Below, piece after piece: positions 11,001 to 16,840 of a stretch of DNA of 43,868 nt. Made by a program: the position numbers and the translations under genes. The stretch is taken from positions 1-43,868 of IMG/VR virus record IMGVR_UViG_3300024265_000019; one strand, given 5' to 3'. Every line of letters begins with the position of its first letter. The first letter of the stretch is position 1. The notes beneath the pieces were generated by a model that worked only from the letters and a program-made list of their open reading frames with translations, had not been told where the DNA came from and searched no databases. This DNA comes from a virus.

Positions 11001-11096
11001 GGCCAATTAGTTATAGGTACAACAAACCCGATTCTAAGGATTTTCAAGACACCTTCTTTTGGTACCACTTATGAATTTATAGGGCGTGAGACTTAA
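8046..11096 (+). CDS. Tail fibre or tailspike protein with probable beta-helix domain
   Basis: 1016 aa with RBS AGAGG before ATG. Residues 1-130 are an Ala-rich helical start (virion attachment) with RTRVDLQAAAAGLPDGLYHVWADL, a motif common near fibre N-termini. Residues about 140-480 look like two beta-sandwich domains. From about 490 the segment VEADGSGDFTTVVAGVNASG leads into a right-handed beta-helix pattern, as in pectate-lyase-like tailspikes. The last 80 residues (ILKGHALAKS to FQASGRI) resemble a small beta-barrel like those of capsid decoration proteins. It probably binds or degrades a surface polysaccharide; no catalytic residues can be named. The end overlaps the convergent ninG gene by 20 bases. 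Confidence 0.82.
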   Translation: MALTAAELDRLEANIAAAQVWVEGDENAEGTADNGRMFDSITKVNAAATAAFDAHIATLNIVDRIAFRTRVDLQAAAAGLPDGLYHVWADLNLGRLGAYQNTSGVIVKTGGITFDELSKTSIERLNDDQNVITQSAIKFSPTKDPNTTLLNGAQFWDGTQTAGATASSGGLFIGTGVIGNGSSLRARFAINASELAKMGSTRRARFVITLDTSDDWLQENSNSGTDDTVLTPLVDKNFSGSFGPGIDTRYVQIDTNTVSIEFDYDFDGDETSVRAIIQLSGSAEASVADNFAFIRSAQWFPNDAEGVTDVLNNSIATTSFTAGELNSVIMPSMAPADGAVSNDLKDGIEIPIGSTGSASQAKYEMPMFGTPSGTRVLLTYFFETSTNIDIETPLTRAVFARLNDGTTIDTGFVSSITEITSTTWEGKAEYTLDGTERGIEFFVLFDSSPSARTSLATIKITGAEYSIVSTTADQKPLEQVLQYRESIEVNRDNRISYRDSNTVEADGSGDFTTVVAGVNASGGGITFNEPNVSFIGAGDYLNEVTEFVDIEPQYFQDIKTLRHEEDIVIDGRQAPATPNQDLIETLFIKHSGTYRGFTALAENSRYPLHIESGNSNDRATQVFEDITAIHFGADGWSSPSAFGVGHHDGLTQKFRRVTGIAHDGGAFGFHNNSDWFFGMDLLVEDSQFWSGETDGNVLSCSSLGAGVMSSATFRNCSINGTLVLINSGWLSAKIENQPANRWEYKLTFDNCSPFDWIAPNDDAKAFILQSLNAANSEIVLGGDALPFLFGKRADIRKGGVGLPAKAFSYHAITTDGTDPGVELEARLGDRTTLPTLQLDMTFDGGSLISITLDEDYTTLTNPQVIALLQAKLDTAQGGATGRIFAENLGEWRNNAPVFQPSREGFEKNEDTTAILKGHALAKSANGVVLMTSAMAASRFAGIALKSAVVGEPVRFQASGRINEVMLRSPVGAKVLFDTWEVGGTDGQLVIGTTNPILRIFKTPSFGTTYEFIGRET

Positions 11097-11640
11097 GCTC
11101 TTTTAACTTACCTTTATAGTATTTCTCAATAGCCCTGTAATCATCGGGGGTCCTTTTTACAGTGCCGCCTTTTAAGTTTAAGAGGCGGTTAACTCTTACA
11201 CTTCCTATTTTCTTAATTAATCTCTCTTTATATTCCCCTGAATCTCCACCTTTGAAATAATTACAGTGCAATCTCTGTCCGTGAATATTATCTTCGTCAT
11301 AGCGAATCTTAGGGTTGTTTCCTGACTCAAGAAAATGACCAGCTTGAAAGTCTTTACCTAAAGGCTCTCCGCAACAACTGCAGCCTTTTCCTGAGTCTCT
11401 AGCTCTAATAAAATCATGACAAGCTTTCTTTGCTGCATCTTTTCTAGTCTTAAGATTGTTTTTCTTCGCTTTGTTAATAGCTTTACGTTCGACTTGCTCA
11501 ATCTTCTTTCTTCCCTTGGATTGATTTTGAATGGCATATTGGATAGCGTGCTCCCTATTACAGAAAGCGCTCAAATTAGGTATAAACATAGTTTCGCGAA
11601 TCTTACTTACACCGCAAAATTTACATTTTCTTCTACCCAT
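11077..11640 (-). CDS. ninG: NinG/Rap-like recombination endonuclease
   Basis: 187 aa from ATG at 11640. An upstream ATG at 11682 is less likely because it lies inside the preceding gene. Zinc-type cysteines are at 6, 9, 27 and 87, 89, 90. The HNH-like core is AGHFLESGNNPKIRYDEDN followed by HGQRLHCN (about 100-127). This matches lambda NinG (Rap), a structure-specific endonuclease acting on Holliday and D-loop junctions in Red-type recombination. Its functional partners are probably the RecE/RecT-like genes at 19.4-21.1 kb. The start overlaps the HNH endonuclease stop by 8 bases (ATGGGTAG). Confidence 0.9.
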   Translation of the reverse strand: MGRRKCKFCGVSKIRETMFIPNLSAFCNREHAIQYAIQNQSKGRKKIEQVERKAINKAKKNNLKTRKDAAKKACHDFIRARDSGKGCSCCGEPLGKDFQAGHFLESGNNPKIRYDEDNIHGQRLHCNYFKGGDSGEYKERLIKKIGSVRVNRLLNLKGGTVKRTPDDYRAIEKYYKGKLKELKSHAL

Positions 11641-12124
11641 GATTACAGAACCCTTCGTGAATATTGATTCTCGCTTTTTCAACCTCTAATTTGGCACGCC
11701 TTATATCTTTAAATAACCCTAGATAAATATGCTCGCTGTTATGGTTAATATAAGCTCTCCACTTTTTAGCAGGCTTATGCCAACTAACGCCTTTTATTCC
11801 TGATGTATTATCAGATCGCGTTTTCGAGTTTCTGACATTTTCAGAAATAGTACACTCTCTAAGATTTTTAATCCTATTGTTTGAAGAATCATTATCAATG
11901 TGATCAATAAAATCAGGCAAATAACCATGAAACATCAGAAATATTAACCTATGATTTAAATATTTTTTGTAGTTTATTCTGGTTTGCATATAACCATCAG
12001 CTCTAGCGTAACCAGCAGCCGCACCTACCTTGCATTTTGACCCTCTAGATTTTCTATTGGTTAACACGCCAGTTTCTGTATTGTAGTGGAACAAGTCTTT
12101 TACTTGATCTTGTGTAATCATCAT
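11633..12124 (-). CDS. HNH homing endonuclease with AP2 domain
   Basis: 163 aa. The HNH core spans residues about 56-100: NHRLIFLMFHGYLP, then DHIDNDSSNNRIKNLR and the final Asn in SENVRN. Residues 107-155 (SGIKGVSWHKPAKKWRAYI to the LGLFKD-type end) form an AP2 DNA-binding domain, the usual fusion in phage homing endonucleases. Such genes are mobile and cut intron-less or gene-less alleles. It lies inside the leftward operon just before ninG. A short preceding gene ends at its start (AGATGATG), so it is coupled rather than free-standing. Both ATG codons at 12124 and 12121 could start it. Confidence 0.93.
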   Translation of the reverse strand: MMITQDQVKDLFHYNTETGVLTNRKSRGSKCKVGAAAGYARADGYMQTRINYKKYLNHRLIFLMFHGYLPDFIDHIDNDSSNNRIKNLRECTISENVRNSKTRSDNTSGIKGVSWHKPAKKWRAYINHNSEHIYLGLFKDIRRAKLEVEKARINIHEGFCNHG

Positions 12125-14108: not shown

Positions 14109-14323
14109 TGCTTTAACCCCTCTAATGACTTTTCTTGCCTAGGAAACACCGTGAACACATCAGCCCCCAAGTAATCAGCTATTGCATAACACTTGTAAAT
14201 TGAAGGGTTCTCAATAATTCCTTTCTCAACATCAAAGATATAACTCTTGGATGAGTCGGTTTTATCCGCCAACTCTTGAAGAGTACAATCAATAGATCGC
14301 CTTAACTTTCTTAAATTATTCAT
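14105..14323 (-). CDS. XRE-family helix-turn-helix transcriptional regulator
   Basis: 72 aa from ATG at 14323, preceded by AGGTG. Upstream in-frame codons lie between promoter and RBS and are not used. NNLRKLRRSIDCTLQELADKTDSSKSYIFDVEKGI is a standard Cro/C1-type HTH with the recognition helix near SSKSYIFDVE. The remainder (IYKCYAIADYLGADVFTVF) completes the five-helix fold. There is no C-terminal cleavage or oligomerisation domain, so it is Cro-sized rather than a full CI repressor. It is first in the second leftward operon, behind its own promoter with repeated operator-like sites, so autoregulation is likely. Confidence 0.85.
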   Translation of the reverse strand: MNNLRKLRRSIDCTLQELADKTDSSKSYIFDVEKGIIENPSIYKCYAIADYLGADVFTVFPRQEKSLEGLKQ

Positions 14324-14339
14324 ACTTACACCTATTGCG

Positions 14340-14379
14340 ATAACGAACTTAATTATAGTATAGCGAACCAATAAAGCAA
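14340..14379 (-). promoter_or_regulatory. Promoter and repeated operator-like sites for the XRE gene
   Basis: On the minus strand a -35 TTGCTT (14379-14374) and a -10 TATAAT (14357-14352) are separated by 16 bases. Two copies of ATARCGAAC (plus strand 14340-14348 and 14360-14368) lie exactly 20 bp apart and bracket the -10 box. Two-turn spacing suits cooperative binding of a small HTH regulator on one DNA face. Confidence 0.7.
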
Positions 14380-14380
14380 G

Positions 14381-14749
14381 TTAATTTTTTCTTAATTTCT
14401 GTTCTTCATACCATTTTATAGCATCTTCATCACTCATCTTATCACTATCCACATTATGAGCCTCTACAGCTTTCTCATGAGCATTCTCAGATCGATTGGC
14501 AATATCTTTAGCCCTCTTTTTGTCTAATTCTTCACTAGCGCTATTATCTGGCTTTGGCAAATCCTCACCATGCATGCCTTTAAACATCCTTGTAAATGTC
14601 GAATTAGCATCTTTAACTGGCTTGTTATAGTTTTCCCTGATGAATATTCGTCTAACGTGGTTGAATTGCTTAGAAGAGAATCCTCGACGCTTTAAAGAGT
14701 CTCTTGTTTTATCGCAAGGTATCCAATTTTGATCAACGGTTGTTATCAT
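14381..14749 (-). CDS. Hypothetical protein, possibly DnaT-like
   Basis: 122 aa with GAGGA six bases before ATG. The N-terminal half (NWIPCDKTRDSLKRRGFSSKQFNHVRRIF) resembles the short helical ssDNA-binding domain at the C-terminus of primosomal DnaT, where a Trp-x-Pro is followed by LxxxGxxxxF. The C-terminal half is a charged, likely disordered or helical tail (DEDAIKWYEEQKLRKN). If the likeness holds it would be a replication initiation helper, the only one in this genome. The match is weak. Confidence 0.45.
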   Translation of the reverse strand: MITTVDQNWIPCDKTRDSLKRRGFSSKQFNHVRRIFIRENYNKPVKDANSTFTRMFKGMHGEDLPKPDNSASEELDKKRAKDIANRSENAHEKAVEAHNVDSDKMSDEDAIKWYEEQKLRKN

Positions 14750-14780
14750 AATAAATCCTCGTTACAGGTTGCTAGGTTAA

Positions 14781-15263
14781 TCATATTTTTGAGTTATTAA
14801 GCTTATCTCTTTCAAGCAAAAGTAAGCCAGATTGAGTGTCAATTAATATAGTTAAAGCTTCGCATGCTTTATCTATCTGCTTATTCCATTCGACTTGGCA
14901 TTCACGCTCATTATTAAAAATAAACAACGGATTACCTGGACGTTGACGAAATCCAGTGTTATCAACGGGTGATATAATTCTTGAGGTTATTTTCCCTGAC
15001 TTGCTTACTGGCCTAAAATGACACTTCGAATAATACACAGTTTTATTTTTTGGCAAATCATCGTTACTGAACACTTTGACTTCTGTTGGCGGAACGTTTC
15101 TTAGTGCTTTTTTTGCTAGATCTGGCCTTAAATAGTGGCACATTTTAACTTTTTTAAATAATTTGTGAGTAAGCGCCTCATACTCCAGCCGCTCTTTATC
15201 ATCAAAACCGTCAATTTGACTTTGAATTACTTCTTTTAGATTAATTAAATCTTGTTTGTCCAT
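14781..15263 (-). CDS. Hypothetical protein
   Basis: 160 aa. ATG codons at 15266 and 15263 are both possible; the second has better spacing from AGAGGA. It has a helical N-terminus (DLINLKEVIQSQIDGFDDKERLEYEAL), a central basic and Pro-rich part with KCHFRP and GFRQRPGNPLFIFNNERE, and a helical end. No family recognised. It lies between the coiled-coil gene and the DnaT-like gene in the leftward operon. Confidence 0.55.
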   Translation of the reverse strand: MDKQDLINLKEVIQSQIDGFDDKERLEYEALTHKLFKKVKMCHYLRPDLAKKALRNVPPTEVKVFSNDDLPKNKTVYYSKCHFRPVSKSGKITSRIISPVDNTGFRQRPGNPLFIFNNERECQVEWNKQIDKACEALTILIDTQSGLLLLERDKLNNSKI

Positions 15264-15661: not shown

Positions 15662-15990
15662 TGAGTCTGACCCCTACTGTGAATGTTAAAATTTAAAGTT
15701 AATTATGGCTACTTCCCCTTTAAAGCCTATCAAAGCTACCATTGCTGGCGGGTACTAGATATAGAATGTCAGTGTTGCTTCAACCAATCAATCTATGTAA
15801 AACGTTAAAGTGATAAATCTAACGAGTCCTTTAATAAGGGGATAACTCTCAATGACAAAGCCCAGTATCCATGAGTTACACAATAATCAACTATCCTTAG
15901 TTAATACCATTTTAAATCTAGCGTGATTGTCGATTCATTTGTGCTGTTAAGAATTAATCTTTATAAGGACTTTAATTAGTATAGATAAAT

Positions 15991-16080
15991 TGGCAGAAGG
16001 TATGGGATTTGAACCCATGTGACACAATGGTCGCACTCCTTAGCAGGGAGGCCCGATAAACCAGACTCTGGCAACCTTCT
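15991..16080 (-). tRNA. tRNA-Ser (anticodon GCT)
   Basis: 90 nt including encoded CCA (15991-15993). The acceptor stem AGAAGGT pairs with ACCTTCT, and the discriminator base is G. The anticodon stem-loop has loop CTGCTAA, giving GCT. It has a long class II variable arm and a T arm ATGGG-TTCAAAT-CCCAT. It reads AGC/AGU serine codons. It lies six bases from the second serine tRNA. Confidence 0.93.
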
Positions 16081-16086
16081 GTAATT

Positions 16087-16176
16087 TGGCGGAAGACCTG
16101 GGGTTCGAACCCAGAAGACCAACTAAGGACTGACGGTTTTCAAGACCGCTGCAATTGCCATTTCTGCCAATCTTCC
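16087..16176 (-). tRNA. tRNA-Ser (anticodon TGA)
   Basis: 90 nt including encoded CCA (16087-16089). The acceptor GGAAGAT pairs with GTCTTCC and the discriminator is G. Anticodon stem GCGGT/ACCGT with loop CTTGAAA gives TGA, which reads UCA and related serine codons. It has a long variable arm and a canonical T arm (CTGGG-TTCGAAC-CCCAG). Together with the neighbouring GCT species it covers both serine codon boxes. Confidence 0.93.
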
Positions 16177-16633
16177 ATTTATCTATACTAACTATCTGAG
16201 GAAGTGTTTATATGAAGGGGAGCTAGTAACTAAATCTAGTACGGATTTTCACCGCGTAACTCCGAGTTGGATAAGTATTGGTTAACTCATTCCTAGAGAA
16301 CCGTCTGCCAAGGATTTTGCCAGCTCTCACGGTCACTTACCGCCTTGGTCGTGCGACAGATAGTTAATCTGTAAACTCCACCACATATAAACACTTATTG
16401 CTTTGAAGGGTGTCCAGACTATCTCTTGTTACATATACGGTGATTTCTCATAGCCGCGATAGTCCAGACATAAAAAAAGCCCTTAACTTAAAGCAAAACC
16501 TCAGTTGGAATCGGCCAATTTAGTTAAAAAAGTAGACAAATAAACTAAGGCTTCTGAAATATTGCTCTAAGTTAAAGACTTTATGTCTGTCTACTTTGTA
16601 ATAAAAACACTGATTCCACTCAGCCCCTAGATC

Positions 16634-16840
16634 TTATATCACCTCCTTTTTATTATCAAGTTTATTTAACTCTTTTAGCGCCTCAACTGCATCTTCATGT
16701 ATAATTAGCTCTGCATAATTATCGCTACCAATACCAAAAATATAACTTCTATGTTCTGGCGTTCTAGTTTGTTTTGTTGGCGCTTGCGAGCATTGTTTAC
16801 CCTCAACCATCATTGTTAGCAATTTCTCGTCAGTAGTCAT
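16634..16840 (-). CDS. Hypothetical small protein
   Basis: 68 aa; GAGGA seven bases before ATG at 16840, which overlaps the previous stop (ATGA). No recognised domain; contains RSYIFGIGSDNYAELIIHEDAVEAL followed by a Lys-rich end. Its last codons (AAG GAG GTG ATA) form a perfect anti-16S Shine-Dalgarno sequence just upstream of the structured RNA region. Function unknown. Confidence 0.55.
   Translation of the reverse strand: MTTDEKLLTMMVEGKQCSQAPTKQTRTPEHRSYIFGIGSDNYAELIIHEDAVEALKELNKLDNKKEVI

Follow-up and report, generated by a model that had tools for sequence, protein, structure and literature searches.

Sequence comparisons indicate that positions 15662-16633 of the window (the whole stretch of viral DNA analyzed, 43,868 nucleotides) encode a large folded non-protein RNA carrying two tRNAs, and that this RNA is a member of a previously unrecognised, widespread family of large structured phage RNAs built from modules. 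It combines the traits of that family, namely two nested helices (P1 and P2) crossed by a third one (P3), a portable arm (the alpha module) whose outer and inner stems covary, and a promoter at the 5' end (a consensus match). The locus comprises ~970 bases separating two minus-strand genes. The initial annotation had described it as a protein-free, densely structured RNA candidate of minus-strand orientation, in which long complementary segments, several of them crossing, surround two serine tRNAs, and our results agree on each of these points. No ORF of at least 60 aa lies within 15662-16633, the longest overlapping one (48 aa) running across the tRNAs. Both tRNA-Ser, located by tRNA search, are on the minus strand and have an encoded CCA, one with anticodon GCT (15991-16080) and the other with anticodon TGA (16087-16176). 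Inverted repeats are many and long, and several cross each other; they include repeats of 39 nt at 77% identity and 21 nt at 86% identity, a perfect 10-nt repeat (100%, 16529-16538/16588-16597), and an 18-nt repeat at 94% which frames the tRNA pair. Missing from the initial annotation were the RNA's own promoter, the 5' pseudoknot with its terminator-like U-tract, the exchangeable modules, and the status of the tRNAs as optional passengers.

The minus-strand RNA has a predicted folding energy of -274.5 kcal/mol, versus -240.5 +/- 10.2 kcal/mol in dinucleotide shuffles (z -3.35, a score that takes in both tRNAs), and the plus strand yields z -4.87. As the z-score covers the tRNAs and the plus strand scores lower still, folding energy alone proves little, and we regard covariation among homologues as the decisive evidence for a structured RNA. 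The covariation test that had been proposed with the initial annotation, conducted on phage homologues through arm-swap permutations and alignment shuffles, provides strong support. The excess of G-U over A-C pairs (61 vs 11) in the stems of alpha modules identifies the minus strand as the RNA strand.

Homologues were identified through several routes (L-numbers denote the phage contigs compared with the locus). A terminase search yielded 40 related contigs, in one of which (G003/L045) a comparable gap contains this tRNA pair as well, and a search with the downstream 122-aa protein led to L044, which has no tRNA and whose 3' part is common with the locus at 75% identity. Scanning relatives for long gaps revealed a 1.2 kb noncoding stretch in L067 that shares an internal element, AUGUGGUGG...CCCCUUCAU, within a stem, and a pattern of conserved P3 bases detected seven further viral contigs with the same 5' domain. 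BLAST of the gap against cultured phages returned tRNA-Ser similarity only, and relatives were reached solely via other members. The large gaps of L058, L059, L063, and L080 were discarded as relatives, as they look coding or unstructured.

At the 5' end, a sigma70-like promoter (TTGATA, 17 nt, TAAGAT; minus strand, 16631-16659; consensus match only) lies just upstream of the RNA. Promoter-like sites with at least 9/12 matches are found at most 48 nt from the RNA 5' end in all 11 copies, versus 5% of random positions. Because the promoter of the locus sits within the end of the upstream 68-aa ORF, the start of the RNA is probably close to 16623 and not at the edge of the gap.

The 5' domain (minus strand, 16469-16623) is an H-type pseudoknot followed by a U-tract; it scores 88.7 bits with our model R1 (the locus itself being in the seed), and its stems covary. 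P1 and P2 are nested, and the 5' arm of P3 lies in their loop and pairs downstream, just before a U6-U8 tract. On the minus strand of the window, the P1 5' arm GGAATC (16612-16617) pairs with GATTCC (16507-16512), as supported by arm swapping, and the P2 5' arm AAAGTAGACA (16588-16597) pairs with TGTCTACTTT (16529-16538), as supported by the inverted repeat and by arm-swap tests, so that P2 crosses P3. The P3 5' arm, with a conserved TTTCAGA bulge and CCTTAGTT (16543-16580, alignment A1), faces the 3' arm AACTGAGG...AAGGGC (16479-16506, alignment), immediately 3' of which stands a terminator-like U7 tract (16472-16478). Next to it are a P4 hairpin (16411-16470, an inverted repeat with analogous hairpins in L045, L096, and L113) and, by inspection, CACCCTTCAAAGCAATAA (16395-16412), a near-repeat of the usual P3 5' arm which may serve as an alternative partner for the P3 3' arm. 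P4/P1 immunity leader RNAs have a seqA-seqB-seqC arrangement, in which two near-copies of one strand flank the complementary strand. Similarly, the P3 5' arm and CCCTTCAAAGCAA flank the complementary P3 3' arm, but here there is no sign of a processed trans-acting antisense RNA, and L112 and L118 lack the third element. These two contigs also exhibit extra short hairpins, GGGCTGTTTGCCC and AGTCTTCTAAGACT, between promoter and 5' domain, which are reminiscent of nut/put-type elements.

For P1 and P2 together (S1), own arms form duplexes of -24.7 kcal/mol versus -12.0 kcal/mol for swapped arms, and among 40,320 pairings only the true one does as well. In an automatic version of the S1 test, with divergent 5' domains and long search regions, the difference was weak (own -21.2 vs cross -18.9), and it was replaced by a stronger test on P2 windows picked by inspection, hence not blind: among 19 homologues, four of them from cultured Vibrio phages, own arms give a longest helix of 9.6 bp on average versus 5.8 bp for swapped arms (0/200,000). 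In the alignment of P1-P3, 80% of cells are paired and 14 pairs are altered on both sides (0/500 shuffles). The permutation tests do not include a phylogeny model; relatedness makes swapped arms pair better and thus works against the result. A tract of T6 or longer follows P3 in all eight homologues of the first set, the U-tract being absent from the search pattern. Termination at this site does not seem universal, as the tract is only T5 in vB_VnaS-L3 and is absent in HS5. Eight contigs without U-tract that matched the pattern GCCTTAGTT..ACTGAGG were rejected, as they look protein-coding.

Downstream of the 5' domain, the family carries portable arms, which consist of an 11-12 bp outer stem and the conserved bulged AUGUGGUGG/CCCCUUCAU motif (or a second one) and enclose tRNAs, tRNA-like domains, or other inserts. 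The alpha module of the locus (minus strand, 16203-16395; pattern search, arm-swap tests) has a 9 bp outer stem, AUGUGGUGG/CCCCUUCAU, a weaker inner stem (4/7 paired), and a 157 nt insert. We searched viral contigs with TATGTGGTGG and CCCCTTCATA at set spacing and no condition on the flanks, which means that the search pattern itself accounts in part for the nine-base motifs being invariant. The resulting set contains 32 distinct modules in 30 contigs, with inserts of 55 to 166 nt. Their sequences vary, the 9-bp flanking stem is fully paired in 28 of the 32 modules (minimum 7), and the inner stem is paired too. Outer stems average 8.84 of 9 bases paired with their own arms and 6.40 with swapped arms; the corresponding values for inner stems are 6.28 of 7 and 4.68 (0/100,000 permutations in both cases). 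In L113, which was found independently via its 5' domain, the alpha motif reads AUGUAGUGA/UCCUUUCAU, with two compensatory changes from G-C to A-U. As a control, the same pattern was applied to 84,980 bacterial and archaeal genomes and gave seven matches, which were rejected because their flanking stems of 0-2 bp are at chance level. Matches in L138 and L153 were likewise attributed to chance, and L123 and L124 failed the stem test.

A second type of arm, the beta module (TGAGAGTAAAG...CACTCTCTT), occurs in L067 (twice), L139, L148, L149, and L152. Its 11-bp outer stem covaries, all six copies being paired at 11/11 positions despite altered sequences, and L142 carries, by inspection, a variant beta module with a tRNA inside. 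Alpha modules also occur alone between protein genes with no visible 5' domain, at L132 2071, L133 2084, L143 321, L144 3193, L145 255, and on the minus strand of L148 (1308-1412), often just upstream of a start codon. Such solo copies suggest that the alpha module can spread or act alone.

Some arms enclose tRNA-related sequences: tRNA models match the alpha inserts of L102 (34.2 bits) and L100 (25.9 bits), and inspection reveals a T-arm-like sequence adjoining the inner stem in L131, L142, L148, and L149. tRNAs located outside arms sit in clamp stems. At the locus, the clamp is an 18 bp stem around the tRNA pair, with its left arm at 16177-16194 and its right arm at 15973-15990 (minus strand; inverted repeat, arm-swap test). 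Among eight such slots, own arms pair at -11.2 kcal/mol versus -4.9 kcal/mol for swapped arms (11/40,320 permutations). L125, a near full-length relative, has an equivalent 17 bp clamp (by inspection) whose content is accepted by no tRNA finder, the L121 slot holds a weak Leu-like domain (17.9 bits with the tRNA model), and nearly all tRNA-model matches of these phage contigs fall within or beside this RNA. For these reasons, clamp slots look like sites where tRNAs get captured and may decay. Leu-like tRNA domains with a CCA or acceptor/T-arm, and an anticodon arm that has been replaced or enlarged, are found in L121 (3273-3400), L101 (172 nt), and the L100 insert; ARAGORN rejects them.

The 3' domain of the locus (type I; minus strand, 15662-15972) is common to L125, L045, and L044 by sequence comparison, with 78% identity over 178 nt in the case of L125. 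It contains a hairpin, AACUAAGGAUAGUU (15889-15902; minus strand, sequence and pattern search), and a stem-loop, SL3 (15842-15879; minus strand, arm-swap test), with a 7-bp stem and a conserved GGAUAYC...GUCA loop. The SL3 stem covaries in five RNAs, the true pairing being the best of 120. Matches to the pattern CTAAGGATRGTT..ATGGATA beyond L044 and L045 were dismissed as coding or chance. No clear terminator follows the 3' domain in window-type copies. 3' domains are interchangeable, as other family members carry other ones. For example, L147 combines a window-type 5' domain (model R1, E 3e-14) and an alpha module with another 3' domain, which matches those of L130 (E 5e-62) and of the cultured Pseudoalteromonas phage HS5 (E 5e-11).

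BLAST searches started from family members also reach cultured phages. The 5' domain is present in Vibrio phages 1.110.O, 1.240.O, 1.242.O, 1.275.O, Seahorse, BT-1011, vB_VaM_H2, and 242E40-1, and parts of the 3' domain in 36 Vibrio and Pseudoalteromonas phage records. Annotation of the RNA is mostly lacking in those cultured phages that we examined, save for tRNAs and a few small ORFs labeled hypothetical. Neither tRNA nor arms are present in the copies of L044, L112, and L118, nor in those of cultured phages 1.003.O (V. lentus), vB_VnaS-L3 (V. natriegens), and HS5, these last three copies being core-only versions of roughly 500 nt; the 1.275.O copy also has no tRNA. Our literature search, which reached few preprints and subscription papers, found no published description of this RNA family. 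Related phages also carry shorter noncoding RNAs that we did not place in the family (L094 6126-6750 and L083 3353-4012), which end in strong intrinsic terminators; the former includes two T-arm-like pieces, apparently decayed tRNAs. Vibrio phage 1.210.O (L122, MG592580) has a ~930 nt noncoding stretch at 14221-15150, with a tRNA-Pro, a promoter-like start, long folded arms, and a 3' terminator-like hairpin followed by T7; no alpha module or 5' domain is visible in it, and it is possibly a separate large RNA.

The initial annotation had proposed either a diverged member of the GOLLD or ROOL classes or a new class, and suggested an Rfam scan. In Rfam 15, only tRNA matched 15662-16633 at the gathering cut-off (HEARO, OLE, group I/II introns, T-box, and others being unmatched), and relaxing the search to E ≤ 10 added only matches far below that cut-off. 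Those of microRNA type reflect a long AT-rich hairpin. The suggestion of a new class is supported. GOLLD (RF02032) had no match at E ≤ 10 in the locus and no credible one in 27 relatives, in a search where control genomes matched only below cut-off, and with another 30 contigs of the family there was none at E ≤ 1, control genomes being unmatched as well. ROOL (RF03087) had no match at E ≤ 10 in the locus and no credible one in the 27 relatives, its sole match among them (7 bits, E 2) being in another phage. GOLLD is a large RNA of phages and prophages, often near tRNAs, which sometimes lie in its linker region, and it has a conserved 3' region and a more variable 5' region (PMC12286853). The present RNA resembles it in size, phage location, tRNAs lying inside, and variable 5' part with a conserved 3' domain; a tRNA within the linker is a GOLLD-type trait that the locus exhibits, as shared architecture and not as proof of membership. 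It differs from GOLLD by the lack of a covariance-model match, a distinct 5' pseudoknot with U-tract, portable repeated arms, and exchangeable 3' domains. In view of these differences and of the unmatched models (the GOLLD search having no strong positive control), a diverged GOLLD or ROOL RNA is highly improbable. ROOL is also a large multi-pseudoknot phage RNA found near tRNA islands. GOLLD forms a 14-mer nanocage and ROOL an octameric one. Other large noncoding RNAs, the ~800-nt lncRNA of Vibrio phage ICP1 and the lncRNAs of phage K, are highly expressed in infection (PMC7567579, PMC9241854). Kinship with the ICP1 lncRNA was not supported, since by eye its gap (80097-81107) has neither 5' pseudoknot/U-tract nor alpha module.

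The phage of the locus has a lambdoid layout (RecE/RecT, a CI/Cro-like regulator, a tyrosine-recombinase-like protein, and NinG). Genes next to the RNA are swapped between phages: the 68-aa gene is common with L096, a 77-aa gene with L121, and the 122-aa gene with L044 and L118. As both upstream and downstream neighbors are swapped, the RNA is not linked to any particular gene. In the copies examined, a co-directional gene lies just downstream of the RNA. The RNAs of Seahorse and vB_VaM_H2 are followed by terminase-region genes, and tRNAs start there a few nt after the U-tract.

What this RNA does we infer from its sequence. Our first-choice reading, held with middling confidence, is a trans-acting structural scaffold RNA that plausibly works like GOLLD and ROOL, and we prefer it because neighbors vary while core and arms persist. 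The RNA would be made from its own promoter, and the pseudoknot with its U-tract would be a conditional terminator setting the amount of full-length RNA. By analogy with GOLLD and ROOL, full-length RNA would act in trans as a structural scaffold in infection, by folding into a multi-arm, perhaps multimeric, structure. Genuine tRNAs held by the slots would be excised by normal tRNA processing and then used, while degenerate tRNA-like inserts would be remnants or mimics. Since several copies carry no tRNA, supplying tRNAs cannot be the core function. Against the scaffold reading, the locus has no terminator after the 3' domain and has a co-directional gene downstream, which fits a long leader too, and the solo alpha modules between genes (L132, L133, L143-L145) are left unexplained by a single scaffold. 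It is also conceivable, if rather unlikely, that the RNA is a modular machine, whose core (5' pseudoknot and 3' domain) and interchangeable arms would form a multi-armed particle presenting tRNA mimics to host factors (e.g. tRNA-cutting defences or translation factors). In this reading, every arm would share a standard stem of 11-12 bp and a standard bulged joint, and would display a tRNA or else a tRNA-like domain whose anticodon region is altered.

In the lambda pR'-6S RNA-tR' late leader, a promoter is followed within about 150-200 nt by a terminator-like site, ahead of an operon. The same succession of promoter and terminator-like site ahead of an operon is seen here, and a giant regulated cis-acting leader, in which a short RNA from a constitutive promoter would stop at P3-U7 and antitermination would give access to tRNAs and downstream operon, is possible though doubtful. 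It would account for the promoter in 11/11 copies with a stem and U-tract about 150 nt downstream in all copies of the first set, for the P1/P2 helices holding the P3 5' arm in their loop, so that helices compete as in attenuators, and for the position of the copies ahead of co-directional genes, including the terminase-region genes of Seahorse and vB_VaM_H2. Unlike in the lambda leader, however, the pseudoknot spans the terminator stem and is followed by hundreds of nt of structured RNA, which are conserved past the terminator despite differing downstream genes; moreover, the U-tract is lost in HS5, and the comparable noncoding RNA of Vibrio phage 1.210.O (not an established homologue) has its own 3' terminator. 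A tRNA precursor scaffold, in which long stems would be stalks for processing of the RNase III or RNase P type, helping to excise tRNAs and to separate them from neighboring messages, seems quite unlikely: clamp stems around tRNAs, the concentration of tRNA-model matches in or beside the RNA, the resemblance of ~20 bp arms with asymmetric internal loops to RNase III sites, and solo modules between genes would all fit, but L044, L112, L118, 1.275.O, 1.003.O, and vB_VnaS-L3 have no tRNA, many inserts are not tRNAs, and a simple processing stem needs neither a pseudoknot nor a conserved 3' domain. Finally, inverted repeats, solo modules between genes, and (by inspection) proximity to replication-type genes in some phages could point to an element acting as DNA, such as origin, packaging, or recombination palindromes. 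This is very improbable given the excess of G-U over A-C pairs in module stems, the promoter at the 5' end, and the genuine tRNAs that lie in register on that strand.

Large ornate phage RNAs, among them GOLLD and ROOL, are abundant and conserved yet enigmatic, and the new family adds to them. Phage tRNAs would here be passengers clamped into an RNA scaffold, and one portable arm is used dozens of times across the family. Since the family is modular, comparing core-only and armed versions should separate core from accessory function, and since some members belong to cultured phages whose hosts are tractable (one infects Vibrio natriegens), deletion, expression, and structure are testable.

Two minor observations concern protein genes. 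In L096, a small ORF (11067-11230, about 54 aa, hydrophobic) lies inside the RNA locus, between alpha module and 3' part. The HNH endonuclease of the window (11633-12124) has family members with 45-50% identity to it in L044 (5358-5858), L125 (1547-2029), L096 (11882-12361), and L045 (2987-3448). Their distance from the RNA is about 1 kb or less in these four relatives, compared with 3.5 kb in the window.
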